Positions 23,801 to 56,800 of a stretch of DNA of 64,000 nucleotides are shown in pieces (position 1 is the stretch's first letter; each line of letters begins with the position of its first letter). Origin of the DNA: Hirudinaria manillensis (Eukaryota; Annelida; Clitellata; Hirudinida; Hirudinidae); NCBI GenBank assembly GCA_034509925.1, contig CM067535.1, positions 8,022,201 through 8,086,200 on the forward strand, read 5' to 3'. The notes beneath the pieces were generated by a model, which searched no databases, was not told where the DNA came from, and saw only the letters and a program-made list of their open reading frames with translations. The position numbers and the translations under genes were made by a program.

Positions 23801-25756
23801 AACGATCCTCTGCTGGAGAAGAGAAGGAGGGAGTTGATCGTTGCCAGCTGCCGAAGTTTGGACAAGGCAAGGATGGTGAGGTTCGATGAGAAGAGTGAAT
23901 CACTGCACAGTACGAGTCTCGGGAGGACTGCCAGTCACTTCTACATCAAGTACACCACCATCGAGGTATGTCGTCGTACAACGTAGTATGCCGTAGTACA
24001 ATGTAGTATGCCGTAGTACAATGTAGTACGCTGTAGTACAATCTAGTGTGCCGACTTTGGATTGTCGTCCTTTTAGTTTTTTATCATTTAGTTAATTATT
24101 AAATTAATTCTTACGAGACGCTGATGTTGGGATTGTCGGTTAAAATTTGTTTTTTTTTATTTTGTGAATATTTGATTTAATTATGAATTAATGAATTAAT
24201 TAATTATTTGTTACTTGATAATCAGATCTTCAATGAATTCTTCACGCAATTCCTGTCTCGAGAGGACATTTTTACGTTGATCTCAAAAGCCGAGGAGTTT
24301 CAACAAGTCAAGGTGGGTTGAAAGTTCGATCATCAATCAACTTCAGTGTCCAAATGTTTCATTACTTTCAACTGATTAGACATTTTCAATGTTGTATTGT
24401 ATTGTGTTGTACTTGTGATTGACAACACATCTGGGCCTTAATGATGATAATCCTTCCAGTATCAACATCCATCAATGTTTAGATATTCCATGGATGTTTA
24501 GATATTCACATTTTAAATATAATTCTAATATTTAAATATTATGTTATAAATAATATAAATATTGTTATATATAAATAGCATATATATTGTATATATATAA
24601 CACAATATATTGTATAATATAAATATTGTTAAATCATTCAATATCACCTTGTAATTCACCTTTTAATTCACTGTTTTTTATTCTTTTCAATAGGTGAGAG
24701 ATGAGGAGCACGACGAGTTGATCGAACACCTGAACGACTGCAGCGTCGAGGTGACCTCGGGAATCGAAAACTCTCACGGAAAGGTCAACGTTCTCCTCCA
24801 GTCGTACATCTCTCGCTTTCCGATCCAAAGCTTCTCGCTCAACTCGGACCAGGCGTACGTCGTTCAGAACGCTTCCAGGATTTCCAGGTCCTTGTTCGAG
24901 ATTGCCATGAACAACGGGTGGCCACTGATGGCAGACAGGGTGCTCACGGTCAGCAAGTTCATCGAGAAGAGACTGTGGTGGTGGCAGAGTCCCATGAGGC
25001 AGTTTGGCATCCTGTCGCACGAGATCCTCAACAAGATCGAAAGCAAGGGTCTTTCTGTCGACAAACTGAAAGAGATGGACATTAAGGAAATAGGTTGAGA
25101 TTATGGATTATATTATATTATATTATATTATATTATATTATATTATATTATATTATATTATATTATATTATATTATATTATATTATATTATATTATATTA
25201 TAAGAATTGCTGTAATGTTTTAAGATTTTAATATTATAAAACTCTAGTGTGGTTTTATCTTTTTAATTTAATTTAATTTGGTTTAATGGTTATTTATATC
25301 TTTTAAATTTAATTTAATGTTTTTTTTTATATTTTTAAGTACTTAAATTCTTTATTTATTATTTATTATACAAAAACAAATTTAATCCCTGACAGGTCAA
25401 ATGATTCACCACATGAAAATGGGATCAGTGGTCAAGGATTTGGCCCATCAGATTCCATCGTTGAACGTGGAGTGGAACCTCCAGCCGGTCACCAGAACCG
25501 TCCTGAAGGTCACCTTGACAGTCAGAGCCACCTTCAAGTGGCACGACAAGGTCCACGGAAAGATCGGAGAATCGTTCTGGATCTGGATCGAGGATCCGGT
25601 CAACAACCACATCTACCATCACGAATACGTCCTCATGCACAAGAAGAATGTTAGTTTTTTTTTCTTCTTTCTTTTCCATTGTGAATGCATTCTTTCTGTC
25701 TATCTGAGACTTATCTTCAAAAGAAGATAATTGTTGTAATAACAATAATAATGATG

Positions 25757-25791
<35 letters not shown>

Positions 25792-28700
25792 GAAGATATA
25801 ATATGGATGATAATAATGGGAGCTGTTAAAATATTAAAAATCATATTTTCTACAAAAAAAAACTTGCATTAAAATTTGCATATAAACATTTTAGATATTC
25901 TGGCTATCAGACTTACTTAATTTCTCCTTAAATTAAACAACAGGTCATCACGGACACCCCTCTGATAATCTCCTTCACGATCCCGATATTTGAACCTCTC
26001 CCGTCGCAATATTACATCCGCGTCACGTCCGACACTTGGATCGGATTCGAGGACACGGTCCCGATAACCTTCCAGCACCTCATCCTGCCAGAGAGGCATC
26101 CGCCCCACACAGGTACTTGACATACTTTCAAATGTTTACTAATTGGTCACTTGGATACTTGACATTAATTATGCTAATTTTTTCATGAAAATGTTTACTA
26201 ATTGGTTACTTGGATACTTGACATTAATTATGCTAATTTTTGCATGCAAATGCTTACTAATCGGTTACCTATTCGCCATCTATTTTTAGAGTTGCTCGAC
26301 CTTCGACCTCTGCCGAAGCACGCCCTGAGGGATCCCAAGCTCGAAGACTTGTACAAGTTCTCCCACTTCAACCCGATCCAGACCCAGGTCTTCCACACTC
26401 TTTACCACCAGGACGGTAATGTTCTCATCGGTGCTCCCACCGGATCTGGAAAAACGATCATGGCGGAGCTCGCCATTTTCAGGATCTTTAGGGAATATCC
26501 TAATGCCAAGGTGCGTACCTCGTTGTTTGTTTGTGAAATTCCAGCAATTCTTGCTTGGAAATAATTTGAGGAATTGCCATTAAAATGATGATTGCATTTC
26601 GATTGATTCGTGTTTCGTCATCCATTTTGCAGGCTGTTTACATTGCACCTTTGAAGGCTCTCGTCAGGGAAAGAATTGAGGATTGGAAAGTCAGGATCGA
26701 ACAGAAGCTTGGAAAGAAGTAAATTATTAATTTAATTATTTTAATTAAATTATTTTAATTTTAAACATTTAATTCCTAATTCTGTGGCTTCTGAGTTTCA
26801 CTTTTTAAATATTTTTTAAAACATTAATTCTATTGTTGTTATTATTATAATAATGTTAATTATTATTAAATTAAATAATATAATAATTATTATTAAATTA
26901 AATAATATAATAATTATTATTATTTTTATAATTATTATATTAATGTTTCCCTTTTTTAATAATTTTTTTTAAAAACCCATTAATTCCAAATTCCCCTTAA
27001 ACTCTTCACAGAGTCGTTGAATTGACGGGCGACGTGCTTCCCGACATGAAGTCCGTGTCACAGGCCGACTTGATTGTCACGACTCCCGAGAAGTGGGACG
27101 GAGTGAGTAGAAGTTGGCAGAACAGGTCCTATGTCAAGGCCGTGGCTTTGCTGGTCATCGATGAAATACATTTACTGGGTTTGTTTAACAATTCAATATT
27201 ATATTATTCAATATTATATTATATTATATTATTGGAGTTTTTTTCTCTCTTTCTTTTCTTTCTCTTTCAATCGTCTGATGCATTTTATAACTCAATTCAA
27301 TCAGATCCTTTTAATAATGTGATTCTATAAATTATGTTTAATAATAATAACAACAATAATAATAATAATAATAATAATAGTTATTCAAATCAATAAGTAT
27401 TCACTAACTCATTCATTTTTGACGTCTGCTGACTTTCCCTCATTTTTTCCTTCACTTTCTGCTCAGGCGACGACAGAGGACCGGTTCTGGAGGTCATCGT
27501 GTCAAGGACGAACTTCATTTCGAGTCACACGGACAGGAAGGTCAGGGTCGTTGGTCTGTCGACTGCCCTTGCAAATGCAAGGGACCTTGCTGATTGGCTG
27601 GGCATAAAACAGGTGCTTGATTATGTATTTTAACATGTATATTATGTATATTAATGTTAATGTGTATTGCCATACCTTTATGTGTGTGTATATATATATA
27701 TAGCAATTTATATATAAAATATATAACAATTCCATGTTAATGTATATTGCAATTTACTGCAATATTGTGATATATTTACGTATAAAATATTTATTAATAA
27801 TTAATTAATTAATTAATTGTTCATAACTTGCAGGCTGGTTTGTACAACTTCAGACCATCTGTGAGACCAGTTCCCCTTGAGGTGCACATAGCAGGATTTC
27901 CAGGCAAACACTACTGCCCTCGCATGGCCACCATGAACAAGCCAACGTTCCAAGGTTCTGAAACTTTCTAATTTATTTGCTAATCTTTTAAGTAATTGTT
28001 TATTAATTAATTAATTAATTAATTTATTTATTAATTTATTATTATTATTACTCTTGCTAAGTAATTTCTTTATGAGTGATTATTTATAGACATTCTATAA
28101 TGTTATGTATCTGCTAGCTGCTCTGATGATGCAAAATAATTGACAAACAGCTCAAATTGAAATTGCATCATCATCATCACCACCATCATCATCATAATCA
28201 TCATCATAACCATTATCATAATCATCATCATGTATTACTTAACTTAACAGCCATCCAAGTCCATTCCCCGTTCAAACCCGTCCTGGTCTTCGTGTCGAGC
28301 AGACGCCAAACCAGGTTGACGGCCCTCGACCTCATCGCCTTCCTCGCAGCCGTTGACAACCCGAAGCAGTGGCTCCACCTTCCAGAGAACGAGGTATTTT
28401 CTTCATTTCATTTTATTTTTTTAAATATATTTTATCAATTTATAATTAATTATTTATTTATTTTTTTATTATTAACGTAATTTTCCATTTTATTATTTTT
28501 ATTTATATATTTTTAAAATATTCTTTACGGTTATTTGTTTAATTAAAATTCTCCATCATTCTCGATAAAATAATTAATAAAATAAATTTTTTTCCTCGTG
28601 TTTTTCCAGATGGAGGACATAATTTTGACAATCAAGGACAGCAACTTGAAACTGACGCTCGCATTTGGCATCGGACTTCACCACGCGGGTCTCCACGAAC

Positions 28701-33843: not shown

Positions 33844-35996
33844 TTAACTTGTTTCATAAGAAGCTGAAAATCCTTGGAAGTTGGTGGAAGTAAACGACTT
33901 AAAAACCACGAGCAGAGCATTCGTGGTTGATGTGAAATTCTTGTTCTGCTGTTTTCCACAGAATTTTCCCAAAGACTTTGCATCGTCGTATTCTCCATCT
34001 CTGACATCTATGTACTCCTCTTCGCACAATTCATCTTCTCCAATCTTAATAGAATTAATAAATAGCATTAAATGGCAATCCCTCACTAATGTCAACGTTC
34101 GGAATTTTTTTTAGACACATCTGTAATAGGTTTATAAGTTGTTGGTTAATAACGATTACCTCCACGATGTGGAAAGTCAGTTTGATGACAGTTGAATTTG
34201 GACTTCTGATGAGATAGTGACACAGTTTGAGGAAGGGATAAAAATTCGGGAAACCGGGAGATGTGAAGTTTCCAGCCATTCCGTCCAGTGTTTTGAGGGA
34301 AATTGCTGCATTAATTTAGCATTTAAATGTTCTTTTAAGTTTTCGCTCGAATTCGGTTATAATAAATTTAATTAAAATTGATTAAATCGTTTAATACATT
34401 AACTTCGTTACTTCGATATTGAGCTGACAATCCTGGCGTCCATGATCTAGCTCCGGGAGCCAAATTAAAGTTAATAAGCATCCGCGAACCCGTGGATCTA
34501 ATTATTTTCGGCATTTTTATCGAAGCTCCGCATATTTTTTCTGCAGAATAAAATTAATTTAGCCAATTTTCCTTTATGTAATTGCCAAAAAATGTCGGTC
34601 TAACTTAAAATAGGTGAATTAAAATATCCATCTTTAATCTCCAAGTAACTGGTGCAATTCTTGTTTTTCGGAATTCTGGCTCGAGTTATTCTCATCTCGA
34701 CGATGTCGTTAGAACTGGCCAAAATCCTCCATTGACATGATTGTTTTTCAAAAAATTTCTTCGTTTTGTGCTTCGTAACGAGGCCGTCTCCATTGTAATC
34801 CAAACTTCCTGTGCTTTTGGTCAGCGTCTTTCCACATCCTACAAAATAGGATCAAGAGATTCAAATATCGAATCAAGTATGGAAACATAAATAAATAAAT
34901 ATAACCATAATAATAAGGGAAATAGTAAAATAAAGATCACCCAAATCAATTATTGGTTGATATTAGTTAATACTTGACACTTACCAGGACATTTGTAGAG
35001 CTTATTTGTCTGCCTAATGTCCCCTGGACTTAGGATCGAGCGCTGCCCTACTTTGGCGTAAGAATGCTTGTATTTGTCGTTATTATTATTGTTGTTGTTG
35101 TTGTGGTTGATGCTGCTGTAGTTGTGGTTGTTGTTGATGACGCTCATGAACGCCTTACCACCCTTTGCTGGGTAATAAAGTGGGTAGTGCATGATGCTGT
35201 CAAAGTCATATGGCTCCCCCAATGAATCCAAGTCTTTGTACATTTTGAAGTTGTGTTGCAAATCTTTAAAACATTTTGGTCGAGAATTATTATTATTAAG
35301 TGTTTAAATAATTATTAATAAGTATTATTCTACTTTTTATTTATTTCATATTTTAATATTTTAAATTAACATCATGACTTGAGAAATGATCTGAACAAGT
35401 CGGTGAATTCGTGCAAAATTACAAAAAAAAAAACAAAAAACATCATGGAAGCGAACGTTTGTCGATATTTTCAAAGTGGATGCGAACGTATTTGTCCCTG
35501 TCAGGTCTCGACTGTTCGTGATAGAAGCCAATCGTATGGCCAAGTTCGTGCATTATGTTCCCCATTTGACTGCAGTTCGGTGAAATTGAGAAGAATTGGG
35601 ATCCATTCCTCTTATTACCAACGGGAGTGCAACATCTGAAATCGATTGAATCGATTGATCCGCTTTCAGCTGGAGTAAGATGGAGTGGTTTGTCATTTGA
35701 AATGGGCTAAAGTTTCGATGGGTTGAAAGTTCTGATTATTTACCGTGTAAGTCTTAATGCGAATTAATTTAATGTTATTTAAATTAATGTTATTTAAATT
35801 AATTAATGTAATTTATTTAATAAATTTAAATTACATCGCTACATTTAAATTCTATTCTGTAACGTTAAAGATTGCGCTACATCATCCAGCGTTTCGAAAG
35901 AATTATGGAAATAGTATTTCAAGCGGCAGAGAGACATGTTTGGTAGAAGGAAATTCCAAAATAAATAATCTCTCGACATAATATACACGCTACGGA

Positions 35997-44689: not shown

Positions 44690-47216
44690 ATGAAGTCCAC
44701 GAAAGAATTGGCAAAGTATGACAAAATTGTTTGATTAACAATAATCGTGCAAACTTATTGGTGTGCAGCATATTTGTCAATTTGGTCACTTTTTGCTCAA
44801 GTTTATGATAGAAAATATAAACTATTAATATAATTTAGGGAACTTGGCATTTTGAAAACAAAGCCAAAGGTGACGAACTACGACAAAGAAGGCTTTAGTA
44901 AGTTTCTAAGTGACATTGCTATATAATTGTGAAAGAAATCAAATCATCTAAATTTACAGCACAGCTTTTTAGCTACCTTATTGTATTGGATTTCGAATCG
45001 ACATGTTGGCAAAATGACAAATTCAGATCCCAGGAAATTAGTGAGTACATTAATTAAAACCAATTAGAGCTTTTGATTCCATTACTATCATCACCGTCGC
45101 TCCACTTTACGTATTTCAGTGCTTGACTATTCAGTTTGAGTTAATTCTTATAATAATTCTAATAAATAAAAAAACTATTTTAATCAAACAATGTTTTTTC
45201 TTTAGTTGAATTCCCAGCAGTGTTACTAAACTTGAGGACTGGGGAGGTGGAAGCTGAGTTTCATTCTTATGTTCAACCACAGGAAAACCCCATTCTCAGT
45301 CAGTTCTGTACTCAACTGACAGGCATCTCACAGGTTCTTGAATAATTTATTTCTTTAATTTTCAGGCTTCAATTTTGTTTTTGTTCATAGAAAGTTGTGC
45401 CACATTAGTTGTACATTCACAGTGAATGATTCGATGAATTTCACTGTTTGAAGTAATTTTAAGAATGCTAAAGTTTAACCATGTGCATGCTTTTCATTAT
45501 ATTGTTGTTGCACTATATTTACATGTATATCTGATCTTTTGAGTGCCTTATATATATATTTTCCAAGGATACAAAGGCAATTCTTCGTCAATCTATTTCT
45601 AAAATGACCTTCTTGAAAGCATTAGCCAATGGTTCAGGCTATCAAATATCGATAGGTCATATGATGCATTACAACCGCTGCTACTGCGACCTGCAGAAAT
45701 TTAGCAACACGCATGCCATTACTTTACCATTGGTCCTCAACTCAATGTGAATCTGTTTTTAGGAACAAGTGGATGAAGGCATTCCCCTGTTCATTTGCCT
45801 GAAAAAATTTTCTGCTTGGCTGAATCAGCAGTCAAAACTAAGAAAGTTTACATTTCCTCCCAACGTCACAAATACCAATGCCTGCTTTCTCACTTGGTCA
45901 GGTTCGTCATCCTTAAAGTACATTGTTATGATAATTATTATTATGTTATTATTTATATTATGCTATTATTTATGGCAATGATGATGAGTTGAATTGGTTA
46001 ATACCAATTGATTTGATATTGATTAAAATTTCAATCTTTAGATTGGGATTTAAGCGTCTGCTTGCATTACGAATGCCAGAGGAAGCAGTTGAGGAGACCA
46101 CCAGAAATGGATTATTGGATTGACTTGAGGGCTACATACAGGGTCTGTTGAATTGTTTGCCACTATTACTTTTTGTAGGATTTATAAAATTGTATCTAAA
46201 GAATCAATTTCATTTAAATCTTTCAAATTTTTTTTTATTATGATGAAATAAACCCTTAATTTACTGCTTATTTATTTTTAAAAGAAGTTTTATAACAGAA
46301 GACCGAATGGCTTGAAAGGGGCTCTGCAAGAAGTTGGAATAATGTTTGAGGGAAGGGAACACTCAGGTTGTTTCTTGAGGTAGAATTCCATGATGGACTA
46401 TTTTTTTTTCTAGCAACTATTCAAAATTCCTGCAGGACTCCACGATTCTCGCAACACTGCGATGCTCGTGAAGAAAATCATGCTTGATGGATGCAAACTT
46501 CAAGTCACAAAATCCATTCATCCTGTTAGTAATGTTTCTTTTAATAAAGGAAGCTTTGGTATAATTCAATTGGTCTTTTTATTATTTTATTTATTTCAAT
46601 TAATCTTTTTTTTTCTTTTAGAATGTGAACTTAGCAAGCCTAAATGGTAATCTATGGAAATGTAGAGCGTCACTTGGAAGTTCTATCAAATCTGACCCAA
46701 AACAAACCAGCGAAGAATCTCAAGAAAATACTAAACACGAGGAACAATGTTCATCTGATCGACAAGCTGTAGTACCCTGTACTGAAATGAGGAATGATGT
46801 TGAGATGTGGTTAAATGACAGTATTGATGATTCAGACATTCTCTGTGCTTCTCTAAGTGAAGGACAAAGCAAAGGTGAGGAATTGCAGCCAATCTCTGAA
46901 GTTAGAGTTCAGAACCTTTCAGACAAAGTCCAACAAAGTCGGAGCAAAGCTATTGAATCCTCTTCATCAAGTATTGCTCTGGATGATTCAGACGTGCTTG
47001 TGACTCATCATGGCGATGCTGGAACAGACAGTGTGAGTCTTGATCCATTAATTAACAAAAGAATCACAGCTCAGGAAAATTCAAAATTCACTTCTAGTGT
47101 CAAGTACAAAGAAGTTAACAAAGAGAATTTAACATTTGTTGGCAACAGGGCATTTGCTAAATCAAGTGGTGAAACTCCGAGAACTCCCCTAACTAACATA
47201 AACAAGGACTTGCCAT

Positions 47217-47266
<50 letters not shown>

Positions 47267-47761
47267 CATTTATTGATGAATATAAATAAGGGATTTTTAA
47301 GCCCAAGTGAATGCTCAACAGCATTTAGAAAAGATTTACATGAAGCTTTTACTGGATCAGGTTCAAAGAATGTTGGACAGAATCATAATCTATTCAAACG
47401 AATGTCCGCTAATAATTCCTTTGCATCACCCGTTGCGAAATCAATGGTATCTCCCGATTCTTTTAGGCTCAGCAATACATCTTGCTCGTCCAGGATGATG
47501 AGGTCTATGAGTTCATTGAATTCTGAAGCAATCTGTCGAACCCCTCCCCTTTGTGGGTGTGGCTGTAGGACAAAACGAAAGCTTGTAAGAAATGGTGGTC
47601 CGAACCAAGGCAGGACTTTCTTTTCTTGCCCCCAAAAAGCTGGCTGCAAATTTTTCCAGTGGGAGTTCAAAGAGAACCGACCATCTGCTAATGTCTCCTT
47701 AGGAGCCATGCAAACGTCATCACTGTTTGACATTACTTCCTCTTATGTTAACAGCAGGTGA
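44690..47761 (+). CDS. ERI2: ERI2, DEDDh 3'-5' exoribonuclease with GRF zinc finger
   Basis: Nine exons give 614 residues (human long isoform about 690): 44690-44715, 44839-44897, 44960-45040, 45206-45333, 45763-45901, 46042-46142, 46285-46366, 46436-46524, 46622-47761. The DEDDh fold is intact: YLIVLDFESTCW (Exo I, D-x-E), IEFPAVLLN, QLTGIS, WSDWDLSVCL (Exo II Asp), WIDLRATYRKFYNRRP, and HSGLHDSRNTAML (Exo III His and Asp). The large last exon encodes a disordered Ser-rich region and, near the C-terminus, a GRF-type zinc finger (CGCGCRTKRKLVRNGGPNQG, then FFSCPQKAGCKFFQWE). ERI2 belongs to the ERI1/3'hExo family that trims structured small RNAs; its own substrates are poorly known. An (AAT)n run at 47219-47264 encodes poly-Asn in frame. 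AATAAA at 47799-47804. Confidence 0.96.
47219..47264. repeat. (AAT)n microsatellite coding poly-Asn in ERI2
   Basis: About 15 AAT codons plus flanking AAC inside the last exon of ERI2, in the disordered linker before the G-R-F zinc finger. Confidence 0.95.
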
Positions 47762-48271: not shown

Positions 48272-48370
48272 TTTATTTTATTATCCAAAATTGTTATTGC
48301 AAAATATTGCATTAAATCATAGTTATTAAAATTTCAAAGGTTAGCTTTCAGAAAAATTTTAGATGGTCCA

Positions 48371-49906
48371 TCATTTGCCCAGAGTCAAGACCCTTTTACC
48401 GGCAACGTCCAAATCGGCCAGGTCCTGTGTTCCATCGAGGAGACCGCTCAGCAAATCTCTTTTACCCAGAGACAAGACCCTTTTACCAGTAACGTCCAAA
48501 TCGGCAAGATCCTGTGTACCATCGAGGAGACCGCTCAGCAAATCTCTTTTACCCAGAGACAAGACCCTTTTACCGGTAACGTCCAAATCGGCCAAGTTCT
48601 CTGTACCATCGAGGAGACCGCTCAGCAAATCTCTTTTACCCAGAGACAAGACCCTTTTACCGGTAACGTCCAAATCGGCCAAGTTCTCTGTACCATCGAG
48701 GAGACCGCTCAGCAAATCTCTTTTACCCAGAGACAAGACCCTTTTACCAGAAACGTCCAAATCGGCAAGATCCTGTTTACCATCGAGGAGACCGCTCAGC
48801 AAATCTCTTTTACCCAGAGACAAGACCCTTTTACCGGTAACGTCCAAATCGGCCAAGTTCTCTGTACCATCGAGGAGACCGCTCAGCAAATCTCTTTTAC
48901 CCAGAGACAAGACCCTTTTACCGGCAACGTCCAAATCGGCCAGGTCCTGTGTTCCATCGAGGAGACCGCTCAGCAAATCTCTTTTACCCAGAGACAAGAC
49001 CCTTTTACCGGTAACGTCCAAATCGGCCAAGTTCTCTGTACCATCGAGGAGACCGCTCAGCAAATCTCTTTTACCCAGAGATAAGACCCTTTTACCAGTA
49101 ACGTCCAAATCGGCAAGATCCTGTGTACCATCGAGGAGACCGCTCAGCAAATCTCTTTTACCCAGAGACAAGACCCTTTTACCGGTAACGTCCAAATCGG
49201 CCAAGTTCTCTGTACCATCGAGGAGACCGCTCAGCAAATCTCTTTTACCCAGAGACAAGACCCTTTTACCGGCAACGTCCAAATCGGCCAGGTCCTGTGT
49301 TCCATCGAGGAGACCGCTCAGCAAATCTCTTTTACCCAGAGACAAGACCCTTTTACCGGTAACGTCCAAATCGGCCAAGTTCTCTGTACCATCGAGGAGA
49401 CCGCTCAGCAAATCTCTTTTACCCAGAGATAAGACCCTTTTACCGGCAACGTCCAAATCGGCCAGGTCCTGTGTTCCATCGAGGAGACCGCTCAGCAAAT
49501 CTCTTTTACCCAGAGACAAGACCCTTTTACCGGTAACGTCCAAATCGGCCAAGTTCTCTGTACCATCGAGGAGACCGCTCAGCAAATCTCTTTTACCCAG
49601 AGATAAGACCCTTTTACCGGCAACGTCCAAATCGGCCAGGTCCTGTGTTCCATCGAGGAGACCGCTCAGCAAATCTCTTTTACCCAGAGACAAGACCCTT
49701 TTACCAGTAACGTCCAAATCGGCAAGATCCTGTGTACCATCGAGGAGACCGCTCAGCAAATCTCTTTTACCCAGAGACAAGACCCTTTTACCGGTAACGT
49801 CCAAATCGGCCAGGTCCTGTGTTCCATCGAGGAGACCGCTCAGCAAATCTCTTTTACCCAGAGACAAGACCCTATTACCGGCAACGTCCAAATCGGCTAA
49901 ATTTTC
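48371..49906. repeat. 87-bp coding tandem repeat array (about 17.7 copies)
   Basis: Units of 87 bp are almost identical. Three main sequence types exist, marked on the plus strand by GGCCAGGTCCTGTGTTCC, GGCCAAGTTCTCTGTACC and GGCAAGATCCTGTGTACC. Because 87 is a multiple of three and the unit has no stop in certain frames, the plus strand is also open for more than 500 codons. Confidence 0.97.
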
Positions 49907-50094
49907 CAATCCTTCTAGAGTATCTTCGAGTAATGCTCTTGTTTCTAACTCACCGTCTGCGTTTCGAGAAAATTGTTAATTTATGGATATAAAATATTGA
50001 AAACATTAATGTTAAAATTACTTGTTGGGGCGCTTCGGCACACTGCACCGCTGAGAACAAGGCACAAAATCAGAGAAAACAGATAATTCTTCAT
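48371..50094 (-). CDS. secreted tandem-repeat precursor with amidation/dibasic sites (candidate neuropeptide-like prohormone)
   Basis: Two exons, 50094-50022 and 49956-48371, join in phase (ACA A / AC GGT) to give 552 residues. Residues 1-20 are a signal peptide (MKNYLFSLILCLVLSGAVC). After a ~35-residue spacer come 17 full 29-residue repeats plus a partial 18th, ending VLTLGK and TGA. Each repeat reads VLSLGKR, then DLLSGLLDGTQ (or TE), then DLADLDVTGKR (or NLADLDV, with T, A or S). GKR is the classic amidation-plus-prohormone-convertase signal, so predicted products are VLSL-amide and an acidic Leu-rich 19-mer amide, about 17 copies each. The first repeat has GNR instead of GKR. The copies are nearly identical at DNA level. 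TATA at 50131-50137, AATAAA at 48272-48277. An in-frame upstream ATG (50118) is probably too close to the start site to be used. I recognise no named peptide family; a structural secreted protein is the alternative. Confidence 0.82.
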
Positions 50095-50130: not shown

Positions 50131-50137
50131 GCTTATA
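50131..50137 (-). promoter_or_regulatory. TATA box of the repeat precursor gene
   Basis: Minus-strand TATAAGC, 37 bases upstream of the ATG at 50094. Confidence 0.5.
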
Positions 50138-50758
50138 TTAGTTGTTGGCTATTGTTTTTCTCTAATCATGCGGAACTAATCAACGTCAAAGGCAACAGTT
50201 TTCGATTGACACCTTTCCTGACAATCGACATTGGCTCGATTATGTCAATTTTGAGACTTCACGACGTTAAAGTTCGTCATAAAATTGATTTATTTTATGA
50301 TAAAGAAGGAAATCTAACAAAGTTCCTGTCTAGTTGAATACTGACGAATTTTATTTTTTTTTACACTAAGTTGATGAAATTTTTCATACTAAGCATTGGT
50401 ATCCTCTGGAAAAAGCATGTTTTCGCTCAATTTTAATTGGTTAGTTATTCAGTCATTTAATTAAAATTGTTTGTACACGATAAATTATTAGTAAACATTA
50501 TATTTAAATTAATATTGAAATTAAACACGCCAATGGAACATTTCCCAAAAATCAATTATTAAAATACACTCAGACCTAAAGAAATTTCCCTTTAATGCTC
50601 AAGAACTGAATAGTTTCTTTCGTTAAACTTTCCAATATTTTATTTAGATGTTCCCGGTTTTGCTCATGATTTAAGTTGAAGATTTCATAAGAAATCTCAC
50701 ATGCCATTATAGCTAAAGAACTAATAAGGTAAGAAAATAATTTGCAGTTTGAGATGAA
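50138..50758. other. intergenic between repeat precursor and macroglobulin-like gene
   Basis: Upstream of the repeat precursor and downstream of the macroglobulin-like gene. It holds the latter's minus-strand AATAAA at 50759-50764 at its edge. No other gene seen. Confidence 0.5.
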
Positions 50759-50838: not shown

Positions 50839-53800
50839 TCAGTTCGATTCTTCTTTGCCACCATCTTTGTAGGGCTTGTAGACGGGTTTGCCTGGAAGAC
50901 AAAAAAATCAAAATTTAAGTTTACAATTATTAATAATTTGGACACTCTTGATGCCAAATGACACATAAGTTCATAGGTTTGCCAAAACCTGGTTCAGTGC
51001 TCGGGTACAGTTTGACGAATCTGGGTTGAAGGTTTCCAACGCGGTAGAGCTTGTCCAAACTCAGATCGACGCAGGATGGCTCAGTCGGTTTCACCTGAAA
51101 ATAGAAATAAATCGAAATTATTTCATATTTATGACGTCTGAGTGACATAACATGGGAGTGATATAATATGATATACTTCGTGGTAGACCAAGTACACTTC
51201 ATCGTCCTGTTTGAGAACTTGTGGGTTGGAATTGCGTTGGCGATTCTCCAGGTTGAGTTCGTAGCCGGACAAGAGAGGAACTTCAGCGACGAGGAAACCG
51301 CTCGGTTCCTTTTCCAAGTTTCTGGTGAGTAGAAAATGAAGACGTTAAAAATAATTTAAATGGTTGTAATACTGCGATGCGATATAGAAATGATAAAATG
51401 AGTACGACGAGTGTGCACATACACTGCGCAGACTGTCAATGTCAGATGTTCAGGATCCTTCTGTTTCACTTCAACTTTCAGATCGACTGACGTCGGTCTA
51501 CTGGATGGGACGGCTTCATTGAACTCCGGTACGTTCTGCAAAAAGAAATTTAATATAATAAAATCTGATAAATGGACTTAATTGATAGCTAAACAAACCT
51601 GAACAAGAAGGACACCTGCTCCAGACGATTCCAATTTCAGAGGCTTGCTGAGACTGAGGTTGGAGTGCTGAAATAATGAATAAAATGATTATAATATCTC
51701 AAAATGAACTTAAACATTTATATAAAATAATGTCATACGTCAAAGTACAGGCTCGCGACAAACAGTGGACTGAGGACTTTCAAGGAAAGTTGTTTCTTGT
51801 CCGACAAAGTGACGTTGACATCGACGTTGACGTGTTCATGTTCGTGGTAGACGTTGTAGAGACGGAAGTACTGCGATAAGGCCTTCAATGCGACATGTGA
51901 ATCCTGGGACGTGACAAACGCTCCATTGGGTTTCATTGAACTCAGAACAAAGTTGACGAAGGGCCTTGCACCGTCCAAATCGCTCATGGCCAGAGAGGTC
52001 AAGATGGCGTAGGATGTTGCTTGGACGGACAGTGAACAATCTTCTACGTTTTCTCTTTCTCCAACTCTCCAATATTCTTCATCGTCTGAAAAAATAATTT
52101 GATAATTATAAATTTATTTTGTGTCCAACATCCCTGCCACGGTAACTGGGGTACCTTCAAGAACCATCAAGGGGTCTCTTCGTTTCAGAACTTCAAAGAC
52201 TTTGTCACTCTTGGCCAGGGTCAGGGCATAAGCAGCAAGATTGAGTGAATAAGAATCCTTGTCGAGGTCTCCCTTCGTGACGACCTTTTCAATGTACGCC
52301 ACTGCTTTCTTGGTCACTGACTCCACCAGTTTGACTTCTTCCTCAGGAAGCTGTTAAATGATTGAAACAAAATGTACGTCTTATATTTTAAAATCATTGT
52401 AGCAAAGCCGTGACAATTACATCAAGATTGTTAGAAGCTTCGAGAAGTGAGGCAAGCACTTGTGATGTCAAAGGCATGTGATGAGATTCTTCGTCCTGTA
52501 CAAGATAATGAATTTTAGAATTTAATTTCAATTTAATGATAATCTAACGACAGAGCGTTTGTACCAGATCCTTCCTAAGGACAATGACATCCTTATTCTC
52601 AACAAAAGACCCGTCTTCCTTCTGCTGTTTGACCAACCACTTCACAGTTTCAACAACGTGTTCTTCGTTCCAGGAGACCACGTTTCTCAACAAAACTGTT
52701 GAGTCCAACATCAGTGAGGTGAGCCTGCAAATAAATAACTCGAATATTTAGTGAAATAACTAATGGAAATAATGAAATTAATATGAAATAATAAAAATAA
52801 AAAGCGTTTTCCTACCAAAGGTAACCAGGTTGTTTCGGGTAGAATGAAAATGACCCATCTTCATTCTTTTTGTTCAGCAGATACTGCAGAGCTGCAATAA
52901 ACATGATTTTCATTAGAATCAGATATTCTGATTAATAATGAGTAATAATATTACTACTATTAATAATAATAATAATAAGTAAACTTACAATACTGAAGGG
53001 TCTCGATGCATTCGTCTTTGCCTACTGGAACTTCCAATGAAACATTGACTGGCAGTTTTGTCTCGTCGTAGTCCACGAGAACTGAATTGTAGAAGAGCGT
53101 GTTGTTGGCGATGTGCTCGAGTACGTTGACAGCGAGGACGAAATCCAATTTCGTTCTTTCCTCCAAAACACTCGACTCGTTCAAATGCTGGCAGACGTGT
53201 TCAATGGCGGGACCCAAAGGATGACCTGTGTCAATAAAAATGCACCATTTATGAAATAACACATTTCCAGTAGTGGTATCGATTATAATATTATAATTCA
53301 AACCACTTACCGTAGAGCTTGACATGGGCTCTTTCAGACTTTTCTATGGGGTTTGTGATGTTCTTTGGAACGTCGACGACGAGGACTTGTTCTCCGTTGA
53401 AATTGTCGAGCAACAAACTTTCTGATGGCACCACTTCGTATCCTTGGTACTGCAATTTAATGAATAATTTAGTAAAATGAAACAAAGTAACTCTACAAAG
53501 TATCAAACGTTTACTTTAAGTTCAATAGACGAATTGAGTTTGTGATGAACACCATCTGAGACCACTTCAACTTCCAAATCGAGTGGCTCCTGAGCTGTTG
53601 CTGATGTCTTGACAGGGAACGGAACAACGGTCAATTGTTTGGGCTTCAACTGAAATTATTTGAAAATTTTTATTAATTATTTTAATATTCATGAAATACT
53701 CATGAAACTCACGACGACTTCAGAATGCTTGCTTTCCTTGTCATTTTCTCGATGCTCGCTGGGCCAGTCATGACTTTCTCTCACAGTCACTTGAACCTGC

Positions 53801-56800
53801 GAATGATTTCATTATTATTACTATTTATGGACGACATAAGCACAGGCTTTGTTTTAAACCTTAGCTTCTTTCTCCTGGTTGTTGAACAAGTGAACTTCCA
53901 CAACAACCTCTTCGCCGCGCACCACGGATTCAGGATGTTCCAGAGTAGTCAAAACCTTAGACGTTGACATCAGCTGCAAAATAAATAAAAAGAAACGCAT
54001 TTCATTAAAAGTAGAATTCGAACGATGCCAAATAAAAAACAATTATCGTCATTTGCTGTGCTCGCAAGCCAATCCAAAGAATGTTCACCTTAATATAAAA
54101 AGATTTAATTATACCTGCAAAGGTCCATCAACAACCACGAGACCCTTTCCGGGCGTGAGACCAAAAGCAGCGAGGGTGTAAAGTCTCGCTTCCTCGGGGA
54201 GAACCAACAGAAGTTTTTCTTCACCAGATGGCCTGAAAAAAAACATTTTCATTTATGAATATCTACACAATTGTAACAAAGCAAGCTATTAAAGCGATGA
54301 ACGTACCCAACGGTGACGTTGAGCTTCCAAAGATTCGAATCGAATTCTTCGACGGTGTACAGGCTCGAAGGTTCAAGATCATCCAGAGTTCCATTTTTAA
54401 GAGGAGGAGTTGGCCATTGTCTGCCTGAAATAAATAAATAAATTCTTCGTGCAAGAAGAAGAATCAATCACAGCCAAAATATAAATGTACTTGGGTCGAT
54501 GAACAGGAGCCCGTCAGTAAGAAGGAGACTTTCTGATTCCTGCGAAATACAATGAAATTCTTAATGTCTAATTGGTAATATTTAAAAGTAACATTCAGTC
54601 CACAATGAGGCGACATCAACTAACGTTGTGCACTCTTTGAGAATCAGGAACCAACGAGGGAATAGTCGAAAGCAATTCTCCCAACTCATCGATGGTTCTC
54701 GAGAACATGGTTGTATTCAAGTTGTGAAGGTATCTCAGCATCTTCTCGTTGGCCTTTATAAATAAAATATTTAATTAGTCTGATATAATTTAAATGTTAA
54801 TTTACAATTTTCCAACTAACCATCAGTTTACGGACTTCCTGCTCTTTTGGATCGAAGGCCAGAAGATTGGAAACAGACATCAGATACACGTTGGTGAAGG
54901 GTTCTGCTTTCACAAGCAATTCAACGACATCTCCCGGTTCGGCAACTTCTGGTTTCACAGACACTTCCAGCTAAATAGAATAGAATGTAAAAAAATTGCA
55001 TTGAATAACCAATTGAACATTTAAAAAAACTAATAATGTTTACCGGATATTCGTTTTTCTGTTGAACAACAACTCTGAGACTGTCAGAAAGAATCTCGTG
55101 ACTGGGACTGAGGACTTCCACAACAAGACGAGGATTTGAAAGAAGATGGCTGACATTTTGCGGGAGGAGGACAGACAGATCGTGTTTTGTAGCCGGAGAC
55201 AGAGCCACCAGTTTTCCCGCGAGAACCAATCCCGATTGGCAGACGACCTGATAAATGACTTCATTGGTGGGGAACGTTGTCTCGACCTTGGCCTTCAGTG
55301 TTTCGCCGACCTGAATGTAAAAATTATCATTAGGTTATTGGTTTTACTAATATATGAGAATAAAGAAAATAATTTCTAAATTCACTAAGTTCACTCACAA
55401 CAAATTTTGGTGGTTTCTGCTCTGTCAAGATTTGCACAAGGTGTCCATCTTTGTTTTTGGTGACAAATGGCAGAACTTCTTTCATAGTAGCTGTCACGAC
55501 CTTGCCAGATTCCTTGTCTTCAAATTGCGCCTGGAATAATTAAAAAACAACAACTTATGTTAAAAAATATTCAGAAAACGTTCAACTTGTATCTTGTAAA
55601 GTTATTACCTCGAGTTCAAGTTTGTTGGTTTCCTTGGGAACCCTGAGTGAAAACTCGCCGAGTGAGTTTGGTTTCAGTTTCAGAGTGATTTTCTCGTCTT
55701 TAGGACTTCCAGGGTTCGAAGTGTGGTGTCTCACATTAACTGTCACCTCTTTTTCCTCTGAATTGGCTGGAAGCAATTCCTCGACTGGTTTCAACAGAAC
55801 CTGAAATTCAAGGATACCGTTAAAAGAATGTTGTGGAATAGGAGTAAGGAGTTTAATCTCTAACCTGTCCTACGTATGTCAAACCAGGCTTGTAGAACTG
55901 AGGGGTGAATTCACTGAAGAACAGGACATGAGACTGATCGACAAATTGGACGTGGACTTCTTTGACGACGACGGGCACCTTTGACTTCGGTTCTTCGTTA
56001 CTATCCCTCTTGTCTTTTTCCTCCATTCCTTCGTTTTTTTCTTCTTTTTTCTTCTTGCCATCCTCATCTTCCTTCTCTATTTGACTGCTTCCTTGTCTGG
56101 GCAGAGGTCGCTCTTCTTCGACCGTAACTTGAACTCTGACTTCGTGACCCACCAGAGGCTCCTCAGTTTTCAGTCCTAGGGCTTTTTTGATTTCATCTGG
56201 TTTCAGAGAGAAGACTTTCAGACCAGCATCGAGCTGTTGAAATCAATGTCAGTAGTTAGTTAGTGAATCATGATGCATTCTTATAGAGCTAAAACTAGTT
56301 TTTTCTATTAATAATAGTAATAATAATAAAAGGAATGCAAATTTAACCTCAGCTGGCGGCAGTGACCCCGATTTCGTCGAGTTTACAAGAGAAACTTGAA
56401 GTTCGACCTTTCCTTTCAACGGAGCACCAGAATGATGGCTGCATAACAATGAAAAAAGTCATTATTATTATTATTGCATATTATATCATTTAAATAAAAG
56501 AATGGTAACAATTACCTCGCTAGCACACTGAGATCTAGGCTGGGACTTTTGCCTTCATCGCTCGAACGAAGGGTGTGATACTTTGGAGATCTGACATCAA
56601 CCAAGAAGCAGTCGTGATCTGAAAATATTGAAGTTAAATTTTAAGTTAGAACTCATTGAAGTGAATGATATCTCTAAAATAATAATAAAGTAAAGATAAA
56701 TTATCACAAAACTACTTCTGGTCTTCTGAAATCATTTCCCTACCGTATGGTCCAACGGGTTGTTCGACGTGGAAGGTATGGTTGACCTCTTGGTTCTAAA

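Follow-up and report, generated by a model that had tools for sequence, protein, structure and literature searches.

The multicopy prohormones of amidated neuropeptides in protostomes are exemplified by those of FMRFamide and APGWamide. Several known leech neuropeptides are amidated, a likeness to the leech family described here; we know of none that resembles this family in sequence, and to our knowledge its predicted mature sequences match no known protostome amidated peptide. The leech neuropeptides named in titles cited by one paper include RFamides, myomodulin-like peptides, leech excitatory peptide/GGNG and an egg-laying-like hormone (PMC3890597). The C terminus of orexin/hypocretin reads LTL-Gly-Lys-Arg, and an LTLGKR substrate was used in assays of PCSK1 and PCSK2 (PMC9005711). 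Kinship of the leech family with orexin was considered and rejected: only the last residues agree, a search of solved structures with a single unit returned no orexin, and the agreement is taken as coincidence.

The leech gene lies on the reverse strand of the window (the whole 64-kb stretch of Hirudinaria manillensis DNA that was analysed). It is a two-exon gene with a signal peptide-like start and a long array of near-identical units, each with two potential processing sites (site 1 and site 2), and its features are, in the direction of the gene:

50224..50247, reverse strand: upstream block TGACATAATCGAGCCAATGTCGAT, 24 bases, with one mismatch in C7 alone of the five family genes (5' flank alignment)
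50133..50140, reverse strand: TATA-like box TAATATAA, in five of five genes (5' flank alignment of the five genes)
50022..50094, reverse strand: coding part of exon 1, MKNYLFSLILCLVLSGAVCRSAPT and the following codon's first base; signal peptide-like stretch, then the beginning of the pro-region
49957..50021, reverse strand: intron GTAATT...ACGCAG, GT-AG, 65 nt, phase 1; same place and phase as the C7 intron
48371..49956, reverse strand: exon 2, 1586 nt, with the head unit, the repeat array and a TGA stop
49850..49956, reverse strand: pro-region and divergent head unit NGELETRALLEDTLEGLENLADLDVAGNRVLSLGKR, with GNR instead of GKR at site 1
48371..49849, reverse strand: 17 full units, mostly DLLSGLLDGT(E/Q)(N/D)LADLDV(T/A)-GKR-VLSL-GKR
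48272..48277, reverse strand: AATAAA poly(A) signal, at the matching place in five of five genes

The coding part of exon 1 measures 73 nt, and the spliced frame encodes 552 aa plus the stop. The exon 1 start is 78% identical to the start of C10a across 27 residues, and an N-terminal stretch resembling a signal peptide, judged by eye, is conserved in all five genes. The block at 50224-50247 is a candidate regulatory element common to the family genes. Tandem Repeats Finder (TRF) describes the array as 17.5 copies of 87 bp with 93% matches (score 2677). The final unit has 28 residues and ends in VLTL-Gly-Lys-stop, the other full units have 29, and one of the 17 carries K for T together with DVS. 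The protein contains 34 GKR motifs: one in the head unit, two in each of 16 units and one in the last. A prior sequence-only reading had placed the signal peptide-like start, the intron and its phase, the repeats, the GKR sites, the TATA-like box and the AATAAA signal where they are found here. Its estimate of 17-18 repeats resolves into 17 full units and one divergent head unit, and its two GKR sites per repeat hold for 16 units but not for the head unit, with GNR at site 1, or for the last, which ends GK-stop.

The neighbours of the gene in the window are: (i) exons of an alpha-2-macroglobulin/complement-type thioester protein (51733-56242, reverse strand), with TED_complement over the cut-off and the bait-region and MG4 matches below it, (ii) exons that carry a Sec63 domain and match a DEAD helicase (24694-26564, forward strand), which we take to resemble the splicing helicase Brr2, (iii) a GRF zinc-finger protein that contains a long run of Asn (46625-47761, forward strand), and (iv) an astacin peptidase exon (34950-35303, reverse strand). 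Rfam and tRNA scans of the 64-kb window returned nothing.

At least five intact family genes are present in the 148.4-Mb genome (23 contigs), where only the best candidates were scored and gene counts are thus a lower bound: the window gene, C10a, C10b, C10c and C7. Contig C4 of this genome has a hirudin-family match over the cut-off (33.9 bits; a single exon-sized match in which a stop is flagged; none in 14 control genomes), as fits a leech. C10a (461 aa, 15 units), C10b (258 aa, 8 units) and C10c (751 aa, 25 units) form a tandem near 6.43 Mb on the same contig as the window gene. They have no intron, and SAPTS-KR is joined straight to the first unit. Gene and intergenic stretches of this cluster align at about 97-98%, and on that alignment the three are recent tandem copies. 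C7 (464 aa) has 14 units plus a head unit, in which site 1 is GKR rather than the GNR of the window head unit, and a 72-nt intron that matches the window intron in place and phase. Together the genes, with 8 to 25 units each, contain 79 units (head units uncounted) and 2,486 residues, or 2,491 codons once their stops are counted, and no frame is broken.

The five genes are also what searches with the 5' part of the gene recover. One such query listed five matches in the genome, all of them the family genes, and a second listed six, the sixth being a fragment of 36 bases immediately ahead of C7. A DNA pattern for GKR-VL[S/T]LG matched the genome 82 times, of which 80 fall in the five genes and two in a remnant, and the reversed pattern, used as a control, matched once. 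The remnant lies after C10c and consists of two units, with an in-frame TAG (C10:6438905-6439078; L010 5906-6079), and a second, broken piece lies on C3 (L012 2911-3033, reverse strand). Upstream of C10a is a DDE_3 transposase-like frame, presumably of Tc1/mariner type (L009 1133-2140, reverse strand; the Pfam match covers 1133-1747).

The repeat is conserved as protein. In the proposed frame, the 79 units, of which 32 are distinct over 81 nt, have a pN/pS of 0.134. The unit pairs behind this value are non-independent, as repeats within an array undergo mutual homogenisation. A frame control on 74 of the 78 tested 87-nt units, those ending in KR (29 distinct), gave 0.13 in the proposed frame, the lowest value by a wide margin; the two remaining sense frames gave 0.65 and 28, and the frames of the opposite strand 0.46, 38 and 0.40. 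The cleanest single contrast is that of the C7 and C10 consensus sequences (pS 0.52, pN 0.017); weaker are those of the window with C10 (pS 0.23, pN 0.067) and with C7 (pS 0.43, pN 0.084). The first Gly-Lys-Arg shows no amino-acid change in any of the 79 units (Arg codon AGG or AGA, pS 0.26). The tetrapeptide that follows is VLTL in 58 and VLSL in 21; at site 2, 74 units have GKR, four have GK-stop and one has G-stop. These values indicate selection on the peptide and its cleavage sites. The four further intact genes, the confinement of the pattern to the family and the lowest pN/pS in the proposed frame take the observation beyond chance.

The gene ends are conserved as well. Four genes end in VLTL-Gly-Lys-stop and C7 in VLTL-Gly-stop (GGC TAA); if stops fell at random, 4 of the 29 positions in a unit would leave a terminal Gly or Gly-Lys of the GKR type. 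Few of these endings are independent, the C10 genes being recent copies, so the ends are support rather than proof.

Outside this genome, at least three relatives were found by protein searches, in which the best 7,999 and 8,000 candidates were scored, and by a further search: P0001, P0002 and P0003, possibly from one species. P0001 has 201 aa and a frame that is broken in places. Units of the relatives that stay in frame read DLLSGVLGGVD(D/N)LA(A/D/S)LDVAG(N/K)R(V/L)L(T/S)LGKR; site 1 alternates between GNR and GKR, and site 2 is GKR. The P0002 and P0003 protein records end in ...GNRLLTLG, from which we infer a stop directly after the terminal Gly. Site 1 thus seems less well conserved than site 2 and the Leu-amide end. 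Pattern matches on viral contigs (142) and in prokaryote genomes (80) yielded no confirmed relatives.

No Pfam family is over the cut-off for the array proteins. The matches to TM_PetC and Latarcin (and three others for P0001) were set aside as below cut-off, as were NCBIfam matches to flavodoxin, MazE and others, for which no single stretch passes and whole-protein E-values are made smaller by the repetition. Of 12 sequence strings of the family searched in the literature, none was found in print except LTLGKR in two orexin papers. Topic searches, mostly of papers open without subscription and in part of their text, did not find the present peptides, and in the main text, as available, of a study of leech central nervous system (CNS) peptidomics, six mass strings are absent or occur only in the reference list (PMC3081291). 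The sequence-only reading knew of no named family with these peptides; its description of the precursor as undescribed-looking is unproven.

The gene is probably a multicopy amidated-peptide prohormone of the classical secretory pathway. We infer that the family genes are transcribed and spliced and that their products are cleaved, amidated and active. The signal peptide would be removed first, a prohormone convertase would cleave behind Lys-Arg, a carboxypeptidase would trim the basic residues, and an amidating enzyme would convert the exposed Gly to an amide. Two products are predicted per unit: (i) 19-mers of the form DLLSGLLDGT(E/Q)(N/D)LADLDV(T/A/S)-amide and (ii) VLSL-amide, replaced by VLTL-amide in the last unit and in most units of the paralogues. 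A GNR at site 1 would instead leave a longer peptide with AGNRVL(S/T)L-amide at its end; thus, with GNR in alternate units of the relatives, a 26-mer ending in VLTL-amide is also predicted. The VLSL-amide and 19-mer amide proposed earlier fit most window units, while VLTL is the commoner tetrapeptide family-wide and GNR at site 1 would give the longer form. Computed MH+ values are 430.302 for VLSL-amide and 444.318 for VLTL-amide. Computed masses are 1942.997 for the common 19-mer amide ending in ...DVA and 1973.007 for that ending in ...DVT (the E-N and Q-D forms being isobaric), and 2565.425 for the 26-mer amide of the relative. The products would most likely be secreted regulatory peptides acting on receptors, their dosage increased through amplification of units and genes. 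As no known family was matched, they are candidates for new hormones or gland peptides.

An enzyme domain suited to the last step is encoded in the genome. The domain of the amidating enzyme PHM was found on C1, with a best E-value of 1.8e-32 to a solved PHM structure. Three matches lie at C1:8127822-8129525 (L015, L031, L034), two of them to Cu2_monooxygen and one to Cu2_monoox_C. All three report an open frame of 1139 aa, and together they look like one single-exon PHM gene with a duplicated domain.

The prohormone is the best reading because of the paralogues, the strict GKR sites in the full units of this genome, the Gly and Gly-Lys gene ends and the PHM domain. It is further backed by the layout of signal peptide-like exon, intron and array, by the lowest pN/pS in frame and by the promoter and poly(A) elements that the genes share (upstream block, TATA-like box, AATAAA), by SAPTS-KR before the first C10 unit and the relatives that end in LLTLG, and by the finding of neither a confident AlphaFold fold nor a Pfam family over cut-off. 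Tandem copies flanked by Gly and a dibasic pair, as is expected of a prohormone, are what the genes contain. Against this reading, Val, which follows site 1, is disfavoured at P1' by convertases, and GNR stands at site 1 in the window head unit and in every second unit of the relatives; a tetrapeptide such as VLSL-amide would be an unusual ligand; and a pattern of ribonuclease inhibitor (RI)-type leucine-rich repeats (LRRs) gives a second possible explanation for the conserved Gly and Leu. The amidated-peptide prohormone of the sequence-only reading is partly supported and stands as the best account, while the exact products are uncertain and neuropeptide and gland peptide are undistinguished.

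The same processing could also yield exocrine peptides of skin mucus, cocoon or saliva, anionic and amphipathic and released in bulk, for example for defence or as host-directed secretion, which we consider rather unlikely. Leeches secrete many peptides, and five genes with a very high copy number suggest bulk output. The computed 19-mers of this genome are Leu-rich, with a net charge of -3 to -4 and a hydrophobic moment of 0.26-0.32, but they are without cationic antimicrobial character, and we know of no exocrine type of amidated hydrophobic tetrapeptide. Neural, endocrine and exocrine origin cannot be told apart from the sequence.

It is unlikely, and slightly more so, that the protein stays uncut as a secreted LRR-like or other polymer of 29-residue units in which GKR is part of the repeat. 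The sequence-only reading had named an intact repeat polymer in general terms, without mention of the RI-type LRR pattern. In the register that we assume, the Gly-Lys of site 1 falls on LRR positions 8 and 9, position 9 being the place of the Asn ladder, and the Gly of site 2 on RI-type position 15. Nine units searched against solved structures matched ribonuclease inhibitor (E 6.5e-6), and the 17 structure matches listed include five ribonuclease inhibitors, two named leucine-rich-repeat proteins and five entries for NLRP1, 12 in all. Smith-Waterman scores of 119 and 118 with two RI stretches exceed those of all 1000 controls with permuted units, whose maxima were 110 and 106, and were not reached by any of 1000 permutations that keep the places of GKR. 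When two of three permuted sequences were run against the same structure library, no LRR came up; their best E-values were 0.083 and 5.4e-4. P0001 as the query likewise had RI first, though at an E-value of only 0.031. A genome search with an RI stretch placed the array fifth among the 10 matches listed (E 0.0047), and also sixth and ninth. The best listed match in that search is a 504-aa frame with RI-type LRRs (C11:448825-449601; L041, L043).

The likeness falls short at the ladder. The Asn-ladder position is Lys in all 79 units, Asn there being confined to the head unit of the window gene and to every second unit of the relatives. In favour of the likeness, the RI consensus fits the GNR unit of the relative, a fit also reached by 32 of 200,000 permutations. 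For the window unit a fit needs Lys to be allowed at the Asn place (56 of 200,000 permutations then fit), and the window head unit is not fitted in full. The score of the array against the leech's own RI-type LRR frame was reached by 111 of 1000 permutations. Among Pfam matches to E 10 for four proteins there is no LRR family, in a search whose filters drop most matches above 0.1. AlphaFold without an alignment gave an all-beta model of low confidence for the window repeats (best mean pLDDT 66.7, the other four 41-54), with no LRR fold, and no fold for P0001 (mean pLDDT 37.0). No caps are seen, the unit number varies from 8 to 25, and all five genes stop at an amide-donor Gly or Gly-Lys, none of which favours an uncut LRR protein. 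The similarity to RI-type LRRs, partly supported as it is, most likely marks a trace of origin or convergence, not present function. One form of the former, which we regard as distinctly improbable, is that the precursor arose from a secreted LRR array in which a change of the ladder Asn, retained in the window head unit and the GNR units of the relatives, to Lys made GNR into a GKR cleavage and amidation site, carving a structural repeat into amidated peptides.

That the array is a non-functional satellite-like expansion or an artefact, recent and open by chance, is very improbable: tandem arrays can be open in several frames by chance, and a 538-aa frame does run on the opposite strand (48363-49979, forward strand; rejected as a gene and taken as a repeat artefact), but the proposed reverse-strand frame has the lowest pN/pS, the promoter and poly(A) flanks are conserved and five genes are intact.

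If the peptides of the prohormone are made, leeches, which are long-used animals in neurobiology and medicine, would have an abundant peptide system with at least five genes and defined masses, for which no description was found. Variation between GNR and GKR is a rare chance to observe how a repeat may acquire a site for cleavage and amidation, and the LRR-like pattern leads to a testable question on the origin of new peptide hormones.

Compared with RI-type LRRs, the leech family has a similar period and holds LxxLxVxG(N/K)xV, a Gly and two later Leu in register; unlike them, it has Lys at the Asn ladder and neither a Pfam LRR match, a predicted LRR fold nor caps. With the protostome amidated prohormones it shares a signal peptide-like start, tandem near-identical units and Gly-Lys-Arg after each predicted peptide. 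By contrast to the FMRFamide and APGWamide type, the leech family is predicted to give, from each unit, a pair of amides that differ greatly in size, and it has up to 25 units and five paralogues.
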